Source: Chloroflexota bacterium (GTDB lineage: Bacteria; Chloroflexota; Anaerolineae; Anaerolineales; Villigracilaceae). From it: a stretch of DNA of 64,000 nt. Numbering within the stretch: position 1 is the stretch's first letter; every line of letters starts with the position of its first letter. A program made the translations under genes and the position numbers. The notes beneath the pieces are model-generated. The model made no database searches, was not told the origin of the DNA, and worked only from the letters and a program-made list of their open reading frames with translations. The stretch covers positions 62,001 to 126,000 of the forward strand of contig JACAEM010000016.1 of assembly GCA_013388855.1 (NCBI GenBank), in the 5' to 3' direction. Below, piece after piece: positions 6,048 to 12,769 of the stretch.

Positions 6048-6938
6048 ATGTCATCCCGACTCGATACCCTCACCCAGATCAACCTTGACGACCTGGTCTC
6101 CTCCTTCGGTTGGGAAAAACAGCCGCTGCTTGCATCCCTTTTACGGAAAGCCTTTGCCGCCCCCGCGCAAAAATTCGCCGGGCAAATGGTGGATTTCGAC
6201 AACCGCGTTGGACAGTTAGGGCTTAGTGAAGGTTCGCGCCAGGTCATGCAGAAGCAATACGTGCGCGATGTACGCGTGTATGGCTGCGAGCATATTCCCC
6301 ACACCGGGGCCGCCCTCTTCCTCTCCAATCATCCCGGCATGGCAGATACGATCAGCCTCTTCGCCGCCATCAACCGCCCGGATTTAAAAATCATTGCCTT
6401 GCACCGCCCCTTTCTGGTCTCGCTGGTCCATGTAACGCAGAATCTCTTTTACATCAGCGACGACCCGGCAGAACGGATGCGCGCCGTGCGGCAGGTCTCG
6501 GCACATCTGAAGGAGGGGGGCGCGGCGCTCACCTTCCCTGCCGGGAAGATCGAACCCGACCCGGATGTGTACGAAGGCGCACTGGACTCCCTCGATTATT
6601 GGACCGACTCCGCCGGGATTTTTGTGCGCTTCGCTCCAAAGACGAACATTGTCCCTGTTTTGGTAAGCGGCGTCATCTGGGAGCGGACCGCGCGCCACTG
6701 GCTGACGCGTTTCAAACGCACGCGGGAAGAACGCGAGAAATTCGCCGCAGCGTTGCAATTGCTCGCCATGATCGCGCGCGGCATCCGCCCGACGACTGTG
6801 CACGTGCGGTTTGCGGAACCGGTCACGGTGGAGGAAGTTGGCTCGACGGACGCTCAGGCGATTCATCAGGCGGTTATTGCCAGGATGCGCAGTTTGATCA
6901 AAACTAAACCGGAAGGACAGGGGGAATCGGCGCTTTGA
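6048..6938 (+). CDS. 1-acylglycerol-3-phosphate acyltransferase-like protein (PlsC family)
   Basis: A 296-residue phospholipid acyltransferase relative. The catalytic NHx4D motif is present as NHPGMAD near residue 91, with LHRPFLVSLVHVTQNLFYIS downstream and FPAGKIEPDP as the counterpart of motif III. It lacks clear membrane helices. The stop overlaps the TTG start of the next membrane protein gene (TTGA), so translation is probably coupled. The acyl acceptor is not determinable from sequence. Confidence 0.78.
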   Translation: MSSRLDTLTQINLDDLVSSFGWEKQPLLASLLRKAFAAPAQKFAGQMVDFDNRVGQLGLSEGSRQVMQKQYVRDVRVYGCEHIPHTGAALFLSNHPGMADTISLFAAINRPDLKIIALHRPFLVSLVHVTQNLFYISDDPAERMRAVRQVSAHLKEGGAALTFPAGKIEPDPDVYEGALDSLDYWTDSAGIFVRFAPKTNIVPVLVSGVIWERTARHWLTRFKRTREEREKFAAALQLLAMIARGIRPTTVHVRFAEPVTVEEVGSTDAQAIHQAVIARMRSLIKTKPEGQGESAL

Positions 6939-7954
6939 AAGAAAACAAATCAACAAAGCGAAAGCCAAATTGGTTCACGCGCATTCTGTGGGTCATTCTG
7001 CTGGCAAGTCTGCTTTTCTTCGCCCTCCGCAATGCGCCCCTGCCGGAGATTTGGAACGCCCTCACGCATTTGAAGTTATGGCAGATTGGCGTTCTCCTCC
7101 TCTTGAACGCGGCGGTCATCGCCCTGATGACGGCGCGTTGGTGGGTCATCGTCCATGCGGAGAATCCTTCGGTGCCGTTCCTGCCGCTGATTGGGTACCG
7201 CCTGGCGGTGTTCGGGTTGAGTTACTTCACGCCGGGTCCGCAGGTGGGCGGGGAGCCGTTACAGGTATTGTATCTGCAACGCCGATACGGTCTGACTCTT
7301 GCCCGCGCCACCTCCGCGGTCATTATGGACAAATTGCTGGAATTCCTGGTCAATTTCCTGTTGCTCGGCGTAGGCGCGTGGGCGATTGTCAGGGTTGGTT
7401 TAATTTCCAATAACGGGATCAGCCTCGACCTGAGTCTGATCGGGCTGGCTCTCGTGCTGGTATGGCCCCTCGTTCACATCATCTTGTTATATCACGGACG
7501 ATTGCCTGTTTCCACGATCCTGCGAAGCCAGCCGTTCCTCCTGCAGAAAAATAAAGCCATCCGGTTAATCAAGGTTGCGGAACGATTGGCGTCCGCATTC
7601 TGCCGGAGGCAGTTGCGCGCGATGAGTGTTTCCATCCTGTTCTCGGCGCTGGCGCTGGCGGGCATTGCCGCGGAGTATTATTTGATGGTGAGTTTTCTCG
7701 AGATGAAAATCAACGCGGTGGAGGTGTTCGCCGCGCTGACCGCCATGCAAATTTCGTTTTTATTCCCGCTGCCAGCCGGGCTGGGCGCGCTGGAAGCCAG
7801 CCAGGTGCTTGCCCTGAGCGCGTTCGGGCAACCCGCCTCCGCCGCAATCAGCCTGACGCTTCTCATCCGCGGGCGCGACATATTGACCGGCGGGTTGGGT
7901 TTGCTCCTTGCGAGCCGCGGCATCGAGAGGGAAGAACGAAAACCCGTAGGGTAA
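6935..7954 (+). CDS. Flippase-like integral membrane protein (LPG synthase TM / YbhN family)
   Basis: A 339-residue protein with about eight hydrophobic segments. The family-typical parts are ALTHLKLWQIGVLLLLN, GYRLAVFGLSYFTPGPQVGGEPLQ and FLFPLPAGLGALEASQ, which match the lysylphosphatidylglycerol synthase membrane-region family (DUF2156-less). Such proteins are thought to move lipids or glycolipids across the membrane. The start is a TTG overlapping the upstream stop, with GGAAGGACAGGGG as the ribosome binding region. Upstream is an acyltransferase; downstream is the glycosyl/pterin cluster. Confidence 0.75.
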   Translation: MKENKSTKRKPNWFTRILWVILLASLLFFALRNAPLPEIWNALTHLKLWQIGVLLLLNAAVIALMTARWWVIVHAENPSVPFLPLIGYRLAVFGLSYFTPGPQVGGEPLQVLYLQRRYGLTLARATSAVIMDKLLEFLVNFLLLGVGAWAIVRVGLISNNGISLDLSLIGLALVLVWPLVHIILLYHGRLPVSTILRSQPFLLQKNKAIRLIKVAERLASAFCRRQLRAMSVSILFSALALAGIAAEYYLMVSFLEMKINAVEVFAALTAMQISFLFPLPAGLGALEASQVLALSAFGQPASAAISLTLLIRGRDILTGGLGLLLASRGIEREERKPVG

Positions 7955-7966
7955 AATGGGAGTGTG
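7952..7966 (+). promoter_or_regulatory. Leaderless-type promoter: TAAAAT, 6 nt, GTG
   Basis: TAAAAT at 7952-7957 lies 6 bases upstream of the GTG at 7964. The same -10/start-codon spacing recurs at several other genes in the window. Confidence 0.5.
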
Positions 7967-9006
7967 AACCGCAAAACCGTCTATTTCATCGCACCGCGTC
8001 AGGTGGAACTTCGTGAAGAGCCCCTGCCTGCCCTCGGCGCGGAGGACGTTCTCGTAGAGACGACCTGCTCGGCAATCAGCGCCGGAACGGAGATGCTCAT
8101 TTACCAGGGGCGCTTCCCACGAGACCTCGAAACGGACTCCGTCATATCGAGTCTGCGCGGCGGCTTCGAGTATCCACTGGCGTATGGGTACGCGTGCGCG
8201 GGTAAAGTGGTGGAAGTTGGTAAGGGAGTGAACGGGAAATGGTTGAACAGGCATGTGTTCGCTTCCAGCCGCATACGACTCACTTTATCGCGAAACTCGA
8301 TTCTCTGTTTCCCATTTCAGACTCCATTACCCCTGAGAACGCCTGCTTTCTTCCCAATATGGAGACTGCGGTCAATCTTGTTCAGGATGGCGCGCCTATG
8401 TTGGGTGAACGTGTACTCGTCCTTGGGCAGGGTGTGGTTGGCTTGTTGACGGCATCGCTGCTCAAGGAGTTTCCGCTGGAGAGTTTGGTCACGGCAGATC
8501 GGTTTGAGTTACGGAGGAGAACCTCCGAGAGAATTGGTGTAAATGAATCATTCGATCCCGATTTTCTTTATAAAAAAAATGGCTCTGAAACCAGTGGTAC
8601 TGAAATGACACGCCACTTTGCCTATACGCAGTGTTTTGACTTAACCTACGAACTAAGCGGTTCTCCTTCTGCTCTGAACGATGCCATAGCCTTGACGGGA
8701 TTTAGCGGTCGCATCGTCGTCGGTTCGTGGTACGGAGAAAAGAAAGCGCCCGTTGACTTGGGCGGCTCGTTCCATCGCTCGCGCATCAGGTTGATTTCCT
8801 CCCAAGTCAGCACGATTGCCCCAGAGTTGTGCGGCCGCTGGGATAAGGCACGCAGGTTCGGGGTCGCGTGGGAGGCGTTGAAACGAATCCAGCCGCAAAA
8901 GTGGATCACGCACCGCTTCCCCGTCGAAGAAGCAGATAAAGCCTATCGGTTGCTGGATGAACGCACACAGGAAACAATACAGGTAATTTTTGATTACAAA
9001 CGATGA
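7964..9006 (+). pseudogene. BchC-like zinc-type medium-chain dehydrogenase, frameshifted
   Basis: Two overlapping frames together encode one medium-chain dehydrogenase of ~345 residues. The first frame (from GTG 7964) gives PRQVELREEPLP, SAISAGTEMLIYQGRFP and YPLAYGYACAGKVVEVG; homology breaks after NRHVF and continues in the next frame as FQPHTTHFIAKLDSLFPI, PENACFLPNMETAVNLVQDG and the Rossmann motif VLVLGQGVVGLL. A single missing base near 8261-8264 explains it. The AISAGTE start resembles bacteriochlorophyllide dehydrogenase BchC more than true alcohol dehydrogenases. The break may be a sequencing error, since the rest is intact and the stop overlaps the next gene (ATGA). Confidence 0.75.
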
Positions 9007-9689
9007 AATTTTATTACACCGATCTTGAAACCTGTCATGAAGCAGCCGGTGTGGTCGTGGTCATCGACGTGCTGCGCGCCTTTTCGAACGCAGCGTTCGC
9101 GTTTTCACGCGGCGCAAAGGAAATTAATCCTGTCGGCACCGTGGAAGAGGCGCTGCAATTCAAGGCACAGACTCCCAATTCACTGGCATGCGGAGAAGTG
9201 GGCGGGCTTCCGCCCGAAGGGTTCGACTTCGGCAACTCTCCCTCTCAAACAGAGGCGCTTGATCTGACCGGAAAGATCATTGTTCAACGCACTGGCGCCG
9301 GGACACAGGGGATTGTCCGCAGTGTGAATGCAGAGACCATGCTGGCGGCGAGTCTGGTCGTGGCGAATGCGACGGTGAAGTACATTCACAAACTGGCGCC
9401 GGAGGCGGTCACATTCGTGGTCACGGGCCAAACGGAAAATGGCAGAGGCGATGAGGATCTCGCTTGTGCGGAGTATCTCGAGTCTTTGTTGAAAGGCGGG
9501 CAGCCCGACCCTGCTCCATTCATCGAGCGTGTGTTCAGATCGCGTGACGCCTTTCAACACCTTGACCCAAATGCAACTGAATTTCCACGGACAGACCTGG
9601 ATCATTGCACAACCATTGATATGTTCGAATTTGCCATGCTTGTTACGAAAAAGAATGGACGCCATATCATGCGCGCCATCCGCCCCTGA
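9003..9689 (+). CDS. 2-phosphosulfolactate phosphatase family protein (ComB-like)
   Basis: A 228-residue member of the ComB family. Family segments are VVVIDVLRAFSNAAFAFSRGA, CGEVGGLPPEGFDFGNSP, QRTGAGTQG and the later FVVTGQTENGRGDEDLACAEYLE. In methanogens ComB removes phosphate from phosphosulfolactate during coenzyme M synthesis; bacterial relatives without that pathway have no agreed role. The ATG overlaps the dehydrogenase stop. In this run of genes it could act on another phosphorylated intermediate, which is inference. Confidence 0.82.
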   Translation: MKFYYTDLETCHEAAGVVVVIDVLRAFSNAAFAFSRGAKEINPVGTVEEALQFKAQTPNSLACGEVGGLPPEGFDFGNSPSQTEALDLTGKIIVQRTGAGTQGIVRSVNAETMLAASLVVANATVKYIHKLAPEAVTFVVTGQTENGRGDEDLACAEYLESLLKGGQPDPAPFIERVFRSRDAFQHLDPNATEFPRTDLDHCTTIDMFEFAMLVTKKNGRHIMRAIRP

Positions 9690-9714
9690 CCTGACACTTG
9701 ACTTGGAGGACTGA

Positions 9715-10101
9715 ATGTACACACTGGGAGTTCGTCGCGATTTCATTGCAAGACATTTTCTGATCGGCGGTGATTGGGGTCTGGAAAATTATCCCAACTC
9801 GCACTATTATGTTCTTGAGCTGCAACTTGAGGGAAAGGAACTCGACCAACACGGCTATCTCGTGGATATCGTAGAAGTCGAAAAACATCTTGATGAGATT
9901 GTCCATTATTACAAGGATCAGATGTTGAATGACAAGCCCGAATTTGCGAGGTTGAATCCATCCATCGAGCATTTTTCTCGAATATTGGCAATAGCACTCA
10001 GTGAAAGAATCAAAGCGCCAAACATCCTGATGCTGAAAGTTGTATTGTGGGAGAATGAATCGGCATGGGCGGCATATCGGATTGACAGGCCGACAAGTTA
10101 A
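9715..10101 (+). CDS. 6-pyruvoyl-tetrahydropterin synthase / QueD family protein
   Basis: A 128-residue tunnelling-fold protein. It shows RRDFIARHFLIGG (His14), SHYYVLELQLEG (His30), HGYLVDIVEVEKHLDEIV and the late NPSIEHFSRILA, in the order of PTPS/QueD. Canonical enzymes bind zinc with three His (one before, two in HxH); here the first of the pair is Asn28, and the usual catalytic Cys between them is not seen. It therefore belongs to a divergent branch and may not make carboxytetrahydropterin. GGAGG precedes the ATG by 6 bases. A GT4 gene follows. Confidence 0.72.
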   Translation: MYTLGVRRDFIARHFLIGGDWGLENYPNSHYYVLELQLEGKELDQHGYLVDIVEVEKHLDEIVHYYKDQMLNDKPEFARLNPSIEHFSRILAIALSERIKAPNILMLKVVLWENESAWAAYRIDRPTS

Positions 10102-10147
10102 CCATTTGAAACATTCAACCCTGCCAGCCTTCAAGCTTTCAGGCTCG

Positions 10148-11239
10148 ATGAAAATCGGATTTATCATCTACGGCTCGCTGGATACCGTCAGTGGCGGATA
10201 TTTGTACGACCGCAAACTGGTGGAATATCTTCGCACGCAGGGTGACACAGTGGAGATTATCTCCCTGCCATGGAGAAATTACGCCGCGCATCTGATGGAC
10301 AATCTACGCTTCCGCCTCCCGCGTGACTTCGACCTGATCATCGAAGACGAACTCAACCATCCATCCCTGATTCTTGCCAACCGCAAGCCACATCCCTGCC
10401 CGGTCATCAGTCTGGTTCACCATCTGCGTTATTCCGAACTACGACCGAAATGGCAAAATAACCTGTATCGTGTCATCGAGAAGATTTATCTGCAAAGCGT
10501 GGACGGTTTCATTTTCAACTCCAAAACAACCCGGGGTGTGGTTCAAGGATTAATTGGCAATGGCAAACCAAGCATCCTTGCCTACCCTCCTACAGACAGG
10601 TTCGGGAGTGCCGTTTCAGAGGAGGAAATCAGAGAGAAAGCAAAAATTTCCGAGTTAAGGATTTTGTTCCTCGGCAATGTGATCCATCGAAAGGGACTTC
10701 ACACCTTGCTTAAGGCGCTTGTTCAAGTAGAACGAGATGGAACTGCATCCTACAGACTGGATGTGGTTGGCGGATTGAGCGCAGAACCGCAATATGCCTA
10801 TGAGATGGAAAGATATATGCTCACACACCATCTGTCATCCAAGGTCAGATTTCATGGCACGTTGGATCATCAGCCACTGATCGAGAGGTACAAGCATGCA
10901 CATATCCTGGCTGTACCATCGAGCTATGAGGGCTTTGGGATTGTTTACCTTGAAGGGATGGGGTTTGGTCTACCAGCGATTGGAACCACGGCTGGAGCGG
11001 CCAGCGAGATCATTACACATGGTGAGAATGGGTATTTGATCAAACCTGACGATGTTGTGAAGTTGGCAAAACATCTCAAAGAACTTGCCAATGACAGAGA
11101 ATTGTTGGTAAGGCTGTCGTTGAATGCAACAAAGCGATATAGATCCCAGCCGAAATGGGATGAGACGGCAGAAAACATCAAAGGATTTTTATCTCGAATT
11201 GCAGGGGCAAACAGCCATTCACTCCTACCCAAGGCATGA
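10148..11239 (+). CDS. Glycosyltransferase family 4 protein
   Basis: A 363-residue GT-B retaining glycosyltransferase. N-terminal half: [28 protein letters not shown] and [11 protein letters not shown]-terminal half: [20 protein letters not shown], the donor-binding [25 protein letters not shown] with the EGFG..E motif, and [11 protein letters not shown]. The start at 10148 matches the family N-terminus; an in-frame start at 10040 would overlap the PTPS gene and add unrelated residues. The stop overlaps the methyltransferase ATG. The acceptor is unknown; pterin or lipid are guesses from context. Confidence 0.87.
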
Positions 11240-12138
11240 TTATGGAATATTCCTTCTCCCGTTATCTCCTCGCCAAGCAATCGGTTGATGACCGCGCGCT
11301 TAATAAGGATGTGCTAAGCGCCTTGAGAGCAAATCTGCCTGATCAACCTATTCGAATCATTGAAGTCGGTGCAGGGATCGGGACGATGCTCAGGCGGCTG
11401 GTCCGCTGGGATGTGATTCGACAGTGCGAGTATGTACTGGTGGATGAGATGGCGGAGAACATCGAATACGCCTCAGGGTGGATCCCGCAATGGGCAACGG
11501 AAGCGGGCCTGGGCGTGGAAGGAAGCGGGGAGAATATTCTGCGGGTGTTCGGACATTCCCATAATGTCCGAATCCAATTGGAGCAGGCAGACGCCTTCGA
11601 TTTTGTCCAGAAAAATCAGGAGCCCGCAGATTTGCTGATCGCACATGCATTTTTGGACCTGTTGCCGATGCCTGAATCGTTGCAGAAATTGTTGTCGTTG
11701 ACAAAGGGACCGGCATGGCTGACAATCAATTTCGACGGAGTGACGACGTTCGAGCCAATAGTTGATATCGCGTTGGATGAGCAGATCGAGCAGTTGTATC
11801 ATCGAACGATGGATACGCGTCAAACAGGCGGCGACAGCCGAAGCGGACGACATCTGTTTGGGTATCTGCGAAGCGCAAATGCGGAGATACTTGCCGCAGG
11901 TGCGTCAGATTGGGTGGTGCATGCTGTGAATGGGAAGTACCCTGACGATGAAGCATATTTTCTGCATTTTATTTTGCACTTCTTTGAGGAGTCTTTGGAA
12001 GGACATCCGGAGTTGAATACCCGGGCATTTTCACGTTGGGTGCAGGAACGCCGCGCACAGATCGAGCGCGGTGAGTTGGTTTACATCGCGCATCAGATGG
12101 ATTTTCTGGTGAAACGAAACGGGAAAAAATCCGTATAA
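11236..12138 (+). CDS. SAM-dependent class I methyltransferase
   Basis: A 300-residue protein with the SAM-binding motif [15 protein letters not shown] near residue 37, the acidic post-I residue at [13 protein letters not shown], and [15 protein letters not shown] as motif IV-V. The substrate cannot be inferred. It overlaps the GT4 stop (ATGA), which supports a functional link with the glycosyltransferase. A TATAAT box lies inside its last codons and probably drives the next gene. Confidence 0.8.
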
Positions 12139-12139
12139 T
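12134..12139 (+). promoter_or_regulatory. -10 box upstream of the papain-fold hydrolase gene
   Basis: Consensus TATAAT at the very end of the methyltransferase gene, 15 bases before the ATG at 12155. It could allow separate expression of the hydrolase; no convincing -35 is seen. Confidence 0.4.
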
Positions 12140-12154
12140 GAATACGGAGTCGAA

Positions 12155-12769
12155 ATGATTTACACGTACGCAATCGAAGGCATCGCCCTGCAAACAGGCG
12201 ATATCATCTGCACGATGAACGGCAAGCCCGACATTTTGCCGGGCGAATTTTGGCGTCTCGTGGGACGGCTCGTACCCGGCGACGTGGATCATGTGGCGAT
12301 TTATACCGGTCCCGAAGGACGCTGTGTGGAGGCAGGCGCGCGCGGTGTGATTAAGTTTACCGTTTTCAATGGGCAGTGGAACACCGAACGAATGGCGCGT
12401 CGCCGCGGGCATCTGTTTGATACCTTTTACGGAGTCGCTTCTCCACTGGATGGGCTCGGCATTTCAGAGGAGGAAGAACATCAGATGCGGCAGATCGTTG
12501 CCGCGTACTGTCTTGCTCAGGTTGGCAAACCCTACAACCTGAACTTCCTGAACGCAGAAACGGAAGAGGCTTTTTATTGCAGCCAATTGGCATATAAGGC
12601 GTATCAGCAGGTGGGTATCAACCTGAATACCGGACTGGCGATGGAGCAGCTCCCCGGCACAAACAATATCATTTACCCGCAGGAAATCTGGAATGGGTTT
12701 AGCCACAGGATGGCAGAAACGAAGGTGTCGGTAAACAGTGCATCGTTAGCGGTCAACCCGTCGATTTAG
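12155..12769 (+). CDS. YiiX/YebB-like permuted NlpC/P60 cysteine hydrolase
   Basis: A 204-residue protein of the permuted papain-like fold. The His comes first (GDVDHVAIYTG, His46) and the Cys later (AFYCSQLAYKAY, Cys142), the reverse of classical NlpC/P60 order. LQTGDIICT at residues 12-20 is the usual opening. Such proteins act as amidases, peptidases or acyl hydrolases, sometimes on cell wall or lipids. No signal peptide is seen, so it may be cytoplasmic. It is the last gene of the 7.9-12.8 kb run, 16 bases after the methyltransferase. Confidence 0.78.
   Translation: MIYTYAIEGIALQTGDIICTMNGKPDILPGEFWRLVGRLVPGDVDHVAIYTGPEGRCVEAGARGVIKFTVFNGQWNTERMARRRGHLFDTFYGVASPLDGLGISEEEEHQMRQIVAAYCLAQVGKPYNLNFLNAETEEAFYCSQLAYKAYQQVGINLNTGLAMEQLPGTNNIIYPQEIWNGFSHRMAETKVSVNSASLAVNPSI

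Follow-up and report, generated by a model that had tools for sequence, protein, structure and literature searches.

The stretch of DNA analysed here, hereafter the window, comprises 64,000 nucleotides of one contig (C44) of the 4.03 Mb, 46-contig assembly of a Chloroflexota bacterium of the Villigracilaceae (genome G000), and it carries between positions 6048 and 12769 a run of plus-strand genes around a divergent member of the 6-pyruvoyl-tetrahydropterin synthase (PTPS) family. Domains were assigned by Pfam profile scan, with bit scores compared to curated cut-offs. A BchC-like medium-chain dehydrogenase is split into two overlapping open reading frames (ORFs), an N-terminal part at 7964..8449 (ADH_N, 19.1 bits, below the curated cut-off) and a C-terminal part in another frame at 8239..9006 (ADH_zinc_N, 28 bits, below cut-off). 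It is followed by a lineage-specific ComB-like phosphatase of the 2-phosphosulfolactate phosphatase family (9003..9689; 2-ph_phosp, PF04029, 141.2 bits, above cut-off), a PTPS-fold (T-fold) protein without the Cys-Asp-His triad (9715..10101; PF01242, 79.7 bits, above cut-off), a GT4 glycosyltransferase (10148..11239; Glycos_transf_1, PF00534, 122.5 bits), for which ATG at 10148 is preferred over TTG at 10040 as the start, a class I S-adenosylmethionine-dependent methyltransferase of a narrow family (11236..12138; Pfam methyltransferase hits weak and under the cut-off, although the sequence has a VGAGIGT stretch resembling motif I), and a doubtful last member, a permuted papain-like (C92, YiiX) enzyme (12155..12769; Peptidase_C92, PF05708, 43.3 bits). 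The original prediction, made from the letters of the window, had placed these six gene types at the same positions and on the same strand, and Pfam agrees with it, weakly for the methyltransferase. Its statement that overlaps and short gaps tie the genes together also stands: 4-base overlaps join dehydrogenase to ComB (9003-9006) and GT4 to methyltransferase (11236-11239), and gaps of 25, 46 and 16 bases separate ComB from PTPS, PTPS from GT4 (given the ATG start) and methyltransferase from C92. The frame break within the dehydrogenase had been missed.

Directly upstream lie a PlsC-like acyltransferase gene (6048..6938, plus strand; PF01553, 29.3 bits against a cut-off of 23), a probable additional member of the unit, and a gene for an LPG_synthase_TM or flippase-like membrane protein (6935..7954, plus strand; PF03706, 117.5 bits), a possible one. 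These two overlap by 4 bases and the second ends 9 bases before the dehydrogenase; the unit may extend upstream to include both. The comparison described below shows that the genes are real and not mere chance neighbours, but that the unit differs from the six-gene listing and that its core is dehydrogenase-PTPS-GT4.

The surroundings of PTPS genes were compared at 165 loci, left after removal of 16 duplicates. They comprise 60 regions from a phylum sample, in which 83 of 301 genomes and 13 of the 17 in the window's family had a PTPS match, 80 named loci out of 213 relatives from a collection of 84,980 species, and 40 regions, out of 104 matching genomes, from the phylum to which the L118 genome, a Rubrobacteraceae record, belongs; all counts describe this sample and are not population frequencies. 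A locus was called core where the dehydrogenase lay within 4.5 kb of PTPS (78/165), and partner genes were counted within 7 kb. The 87 other loci are all remaining ones, including triad-less loci with the dehydrogenase farther away or absent. ORFs were called by a simple script, and antisense ORFs appear in the gene-order strings. The core loci fall into the window family (13), other Chloroflexota with the window motif (4; group B), the leftover core loci, mostly Chloroflexota (29; group C), Rubrobacter-like loci (18), other Actinomycetota (8), Spirochaetes (4) and two others. Group C includes records titled Singulisphaera and Proteobacteria as well as a Leptolyngbya locus, L154, which was kept as core despite an intact triad and in which the dehydrogenase is probably a chance neighbour. 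Named carriers of the core include records of Chloroflexus, Oscillochloris, Ca. Chloroploca, Thermoflexus and Rubrobacter, and of Spirochaetes.

Partner genes were counted with profile models derived from the cluster genes. The GT4 gene was found at 68/78 core versus 8/87 other loci, a RibD_C reductase gene at 54/78 versus 2/87, FolB at 33/78 versus 2/87, a methyltransferase of the family MT12 at 32/78 versus 1/87, the PlsC-like acyltransferase at 31/78 versus 0/87, GTP cyclohydrolase II (GCHII) at 29/78 versus 3/87 and a short membrane protein at 17/78 versus 0/87. The queuosine genes show the reverse distribution (QueE 1/78 versus 33/87, QueC 1/78 versus 21/87). The refuting condition set with the original prediction, a scatter of the homologs over related genomes, did not refute it, and the link of such neighbourhoods with GCHII, which the original prediction had drawn for actinobacteria, is borne out by loci that include Actinomycetota and two members of the window's own family (G160 and G248).

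Not all six genes belong to what recurs. ComB and C92 were rejected as core members, each being present in 4/13 family loci and 0/152 others; contig ends cut loci L033, L036 and L044. The window methyltransferase was found in 4/13 family loci plus three of group B, with relatives at the same position in L033, L035, L043, L045, L047 and L135. The acyltransferase, which recurs more widely and which a boundary drawn at the dehydrogenase had left out, lies near PTPS in 8/13 family loci and 17/18 Rubrobacter-like ones. Relatives of the LPG_synthase_TM protein occur in 5/13 family loci and in L047, and a PF03706 stretch is also present in the Actinomycetota cluster L211. As for likely functions, the ComB-like protein is related to the solved structure 2yyv (8.5e-22) and reaches no NCBIfam equivalog cut-off, so that the models assign it no substrate. 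No informative solved structure was found for the methyltransferase (best hemK, 0.014) or the C92 protein (best YiiX, 0.028). The nearest solved structures of the GT4 protein are general GT4 enzymes (best 6kih, 6.9e-18) and consequently do not reveal the acceptor.

The break in the dehydrogenase is unique to the window genome among the 13 family loci. In the remaining 12/13 family loci the gene is a single ORF of 332-360 amino acids, whereas alignments to relatives place a frame change at about 8263 in the window, near which the homology of the N-terminal frame stops. The C-terminal fragment shares 45-71% identity with the unbroken dehydrogenases at 15 Chloroflexota loci; for two more distant loci, L115 and L135, the figure is 36-41%. 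Although BchC, the bacteriochlorophyllide dehydrogenase, provides the nearest NCBIfam model for the N-terminal fragment (TIGR01202), the fragments score 48.3 and 37.9 bits against a cut-off of 291.25, values that the split of the gene depresses, and the cluster dehydrogenase is also found in Rubrobacter and Spirochaetes records, groups not known as bacteriochlorophyll producers. With its dehydrogenase frame broken, the pathway of the window may be idle, unless the break is an assembly error. The cluster could accordingly be a decaying remnant, active in the family and being lost here, a reading that is compatible with the family-wide interpretation given below and that we hold to be less likely than not: the frame break, the lack of GCHII and RibD_C genes in the window cluster and the lack of a PTPS match in 4/17 family genomes speak for it, but the remaining cluster frames are open and have conserved relatives, and with 46 contigs in the assembly, one isolated break could stem from faulty sequencing.

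In the PTPS family a Cys-Asp-His triad is catalytic and a glutamate holds the pterin ring. The window PTPS is the sole PF01242 match of its genome and bears the motif WGLENYPNSH, with ENYPNSH where QueD has CxxxHGH. Residues were read from an alignment of 163 sequences (2/165 were left out for length), in which the window family, group B and the Spirochaetes, joined by motif, make up a window type of 21 sequences. The triad is intact in 0/21 of these versus 35/35 PTPS linked to queE or queC; it is also intact in 38/50 other non-core PTPS, in 0/8 core PTPS of other Actinomycetota and in 1/49 of groups C, D and G, the doubtful L154. The triad Cys is replaced by Glu in 21/21 window-type sequences and one histidine of HxH by Asn in 12/21, while the glutamate that anchors the pterin is kept in 78/78 core PTPS.

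The protein was compared with the motifs of PTPS-I to PTPS-IV. It has neither the CxxxHGH motif and triad of PTPS-I/QueD nor the CxxxxxHGH motif of PTPS-II, since ENYPNSH contains no Cys and no HGH, and in place of the ExxHGH motif of the folate-type PTPS-III it has ExxxNSH, with Glu at the Cys column. We class it as PTPS-IV-like rather than PTPS-IV because WGLEN replaces the FGPAQ signature, FGPA-type sequences being found in relatives only. PTPS-IV proteins of COG0720, defined by that signature, are described as neighbouring PF00925 and PF01872 (PMC5445326), and they share the PTPS fold with the window protein and this neighbourhood with some of its relatives (PMC5445326, PMC5041015). They differ from the window in the signature, in the Cys-to-Glu replacement and in having the GCHII and RibD_C neighbours that the window cluster lacks; furthermore, PMC5445326, in the part available to us, mentions no dehydrogenase, GT4, methyltransferase or acyltransferase as a partner.

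The predicted model of the window PTPS is confident (pLDDT 96.0, pTM 0.89). Its top structure match is SCO6650 of Streptomyces coelicolor (PDB 3d7j, titled 'uncharacterized protein'), both by Foldseek (E 4.5e-11, TM 0.90) and by VIA-align 2 (Z 19.0, root mean square deviation 1.3, 125 aligned, versus Z <=17.0 for E. coli QueD and human PTPS), and SCO6650 also came first in both profile searches of PDB sequences (1.1e-16 with a profile of 15 window-type sequences). At related loci of Actinomycetota, creatininase and GCHII genes accompany dehydrogenase-PTPS-GT4. The likeness has limits: identity is 24-26%, HGA replaces NSH in 7/8 Actinomycetota proteins of this kind, and the window yielded no match for the creatininase and CDP-alcohol phosphatidyltransferase partners of their loci. 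Five Actinomycetota loci carry a creatininase-type gene and GCHII, and in 5/5 the GCHII loop is one residue longer (YLRGHEGRG), an extension seen in 0/20 other readable GCHII sequences (8 were unreadable by our script). A GCHII homologue of Streptomyces reportedly stops at the formyl intermediate, and in archaea the formyl group is removed by a creatininase-family enzyme. By analogy, the pairing of creatininase with long-loop GCHII is consistent with two enzymes together reaching the intermediate that ordinary GCHII makes alone.

In a quick PTPS tree the window protein falls within a supported group made up of the 13 family members, itself nested in a supported set of 21 that consists of the family, the four members of group B and four unlinked sequences, with no Spirochaetes. 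The tree was built from only 124 columns for 163 rows, and the core label requires 11 changes on it, so that the tree does not show the core to have arisen only once. Loci L048, L049, L050 and L051 encode triad-less PTPS with the window motif, 49-60% identical, and show no window-type dehydrogenase or GT4 match nearby; FolE was not matched in G145, G161 and G184, which are three of their four genomes.

Marker genes of the usual GTP-derived products were scored over 37 chosen genomes, FolE2 being sought in 12 (7 without FolE plus 5) and FolK in 28. Genomes G276 and G104 are 99% complete, whereas G301-G313, reached via the named loci, have no completeness figure, and absences in the latter are accordingly weaker. 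GCHII was present in 34/37. Lumazine synthase (PF00885) gave no match in 25/37, including the source genome and all 17 family genomes; the 12/37 that have it include some cluster-bearing ones, and all 14 control genomes were matched. In five genomes (G104, G276, Oscillochloris G303 and Ca. Chloroploca G306 and G307) the single GCHII lies within 4.4 kb of PTPS and no lumazine synthase was found, which weakens riboflavin as the product. FolE gave no match in 7/37 genomes; G276 and G301 (a Thermoflexus record) have the full cluster and no match to FolE, FolE2 or FolK, which weakens folate, and G276 lacks all the markers tested (lumazine synthase, FolE, FolE2, FolK and CofH). The source genome has both FolE and FolK, on other contigs. 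Queuosine is weakened by the triad count of the window type and by the single QueE among 78 core loci. Taken together, the occurrence of a sole GCHII within the cluster in genomes without lumazine synthase, the marker gaps of G276 and the loss of the triad make riboflavin, folate, queuosine and F420 unlikely products of the cluster, as far as gene content can tell.

F420 deserves separate mention, since PTPS-IV has been listed as F420-related on the strength of unpublished data, the role of PTPS-V being given as unclear (PMC5041015, in the part available to us). That the cluster is part of F420 biosynthesis would agree with this statement and with the presence of PF01996, the F420 ligase family, in 31/37 genomes and 17/17 of the window's family. 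We nevertheless consider it very improbable, because CofH (FO synthase) reaches its cut-off in 2/37 genomes only (G304 and G308) and has no match in the source genome, the matches in G184 staying below cut-off (best 301.6 versus 374.1 bits), and because the four family genomes that have no PTPS match carry PF01996 as well. Independently of the cluster, PF01996 at G000:C1:105597-106268 and in 30 other genomes appears to represent a CofE-like enzyme without the usual substrate route. Still harder to credit is an ordinary QueD, folate or biopterin PTPS amid chance housekeeping neighbours. The PTPS family is large and often misannotated, according to the part of PMC5041015 available to us, and ORFs that by eye resemble ClpS, an aldo/keto reductase and a DEAD-box helicase do lie in the same directon; but the triad is lost, QueE lies within 7 kb in just one core locus, the core order recurs in several lineages, and G276 and G301 lack FolE, FolE2 and FolK.

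The window holds a divergent Chloroflexota version of a conserved pathway, with a broken dehydrogenase. We consider it fairly probable, judging from gene content and residues, that it represents the later part of a dedicated route from GTP through GCHII to a small molecule of pteridine or pyrimidine type that bears a sugar, often a methyl group and perhaps an acyl group. A dedicated pathway is suggested by the recurrence of the core across several lineages alongside genes for GCHII, RibD_C, FolB, a methyltransferase and an acyltransferase, by a core PTPS that has lost the triad yet kept the glutamate, and by the presence of the cluster in genomes without key genes of riboflavin, folate and F420 synthesis. 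The original suggestion of a glycosylated, methylated compound derived from a pterin or nucleotide gains from the conserved PTPS, glycosyltransferase and methyltransferase neighbourhoods of several lineages; the pterin nature of the product is unproven. In the proposed scheme, whose order of steps is drawn from family knowledge, GCHII would open GTP to 2,5-diamino-6-ribosylaminopyrimidinone phosphate, a stand-alone RibD_C reductase would reduce this product or a later ring, a phosphatase (ComB-like in the window) would strip the phosphate, and the BchC-like dehydrogenase would oxidise a side-chain alcohol. The triad-less PTPS would then rearrange the side chain or close it on the ring without a Cys general base, GT4 would add a sugar and the methyltransferase a methyl group, and the product may be fixed in place or transported by the acyltransferase and the flippase-like protein.

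GCHII lies just upstream of the dehydrogenase, inside the homologous cluster, in family members G160 and G248, and GCHII with RibD_C just upstream of it in G104 and G276; among group-B loci GCHII is near PTPS in 2/4 and RibD_C in 4/4. In the source genome there is one GCHII match (PF00925), which lies, as the original prediction would have it, outside the window: it is on contig C24, where it adjoins one of the genome's two RibD_C matches, with genes for a short-chain dehydrogenase and an EamA transporter next in line. In Ca. Chloroploca G305, too, the sole GCHII is on a contig other than that of PTPS, which ends 1.5 kb after the gene.

Several observations weigh against the proposed route. 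The window cluster has no GCHII and no RibD_C, and in the family loci as a whole RibD_C is near PTPS in 0/13 and GCHII in 2/13. The GCHII and RibD_C of C24 are only 53% and 36% identical, respectively, to their best cluster-type matches, and the same type of pair also occurs in G046 and G072, family members in which no PTPS was matched; being distant from the cluster type and present in such genomes, the C24 enzymes may serve another role, and a supply in trans from C24 to the window cluster is an unproven proposal drawn from gene content. Just one of 18 Rubrobacter-like loci has GCHII near the cluster, and as the single GCHII of the L118 genome lies near lumazine synthase, the substrate would have to be shared there. 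G301 likewise has lumazine synthase, so that its sole GCHII may also serve riboflavin. Clustering puts the window methyltransferase (MTw) in a family distinct from MT12. The overlap between triad loss and the core is incomplete, since 12/85 aligned non-core PTPS are also triad-less, some of them standing alone. Finally, the loci counted with the profile models also supplied the sequences for these models, and the loci are related; for these reasons, and because GT4 is near PTPS in only 12/18 Rubrobacter-like loci, the neighbourhood counts are to be read as descriptions and not as probabilities.

As an observation apart, a RibD_C-GCHII pair (L173:7403-10512 in G000:C24, others among L174-L189) is present in 15/17 family genomes, frequently with a short-chain dehydrogenase and an EamA transporter behind it; in this family, which has no lumazine synthase match, it perhaps reflects a second, riboflavin-free use of GCHII.

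Whether the ring is closed to a pterin at all bears on the nature of the product. GCHII with a RibD-type reductase is the established start of the flavin branch and not of the pterin branch that begins with GTP cyclohydrolase I. Together with the loss from PTPS of the residues known for pterin chemistry, and with complete clusters in G276 and G301, which have neither type of GTP cyclohydrolase I, this would agree with a scaffold never closed to a pterin. The sugar would then sit on a diaminopyrimidine, a lumazine or a flavin-like compound, and the PTPS fold would only hold the pyrimidine ring for another reaction. We hold this to be unlikely in view of FolB, of the dihydroneopterin aldolase family, near 33/78 core PTPS and of the ring-holding glutamate kept in every core sequence. 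The dedicated route proposed here may also be taken further: in a quite unlikely and speculative form, it would be a second pteridine route without GTP cyclohydrolase I, in which the triad-less PTPS rearranges and closes the GCHII product. Reduction, oxidation, glycosylation and methylation would follow, and the acyltransferase and flippase-like protein would help to place the resulting pterin glycoside, anchored by lipid, in the membrane; Chloroflexota, Rubrobacter relatives, other Actinomycetota and Spirochaetes would have this route in common.

Sugar-bearing pterins have precedents. Tetrahydrobiopterin is made via GTP cyclohydrolase I and a triad-bearing PTPS. The pteridine glycosyltransferases of cyanobacteria and Chlorobium, which lead to cyanopterin and limipterin, place a sugar on the pterin side chain, and the Chlorobium enzyme uses tetrahydrobiopterin (PMC5683033, in the part available to us). 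What the proposed pathway would share with these systems is the sugar on a pterin side chain; the way in which tetrahydrobiopterin is made differs from the route proposed here. Among the literature matches listed, from a coverage that excludes most subscription journals, no product or gene set like that of the cluster was named. What emerges is a conserved, probably GTP-consuming pathway in several lineages for which the literature matches listed gave no known product; genomes without lumazine synthase, GTP cyclohydrolase I or FO synthase argue against the usual answers and delimit the remaining gene set, and SCO6650, whose structure is solved but unexplained, belongs to the same group.

Two further loci may be noted. 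In a Chloroflexus-like genome, L086 (G238:C1, at about 8257 and 12419) has two PTPS and two GT4 genes a few kb apart. Dehydrogenase-PTPS-GT4 is also present at L124, on a contig titled as a Methanosarcinales archaeon, through either horizontal transfer or wrong binning.

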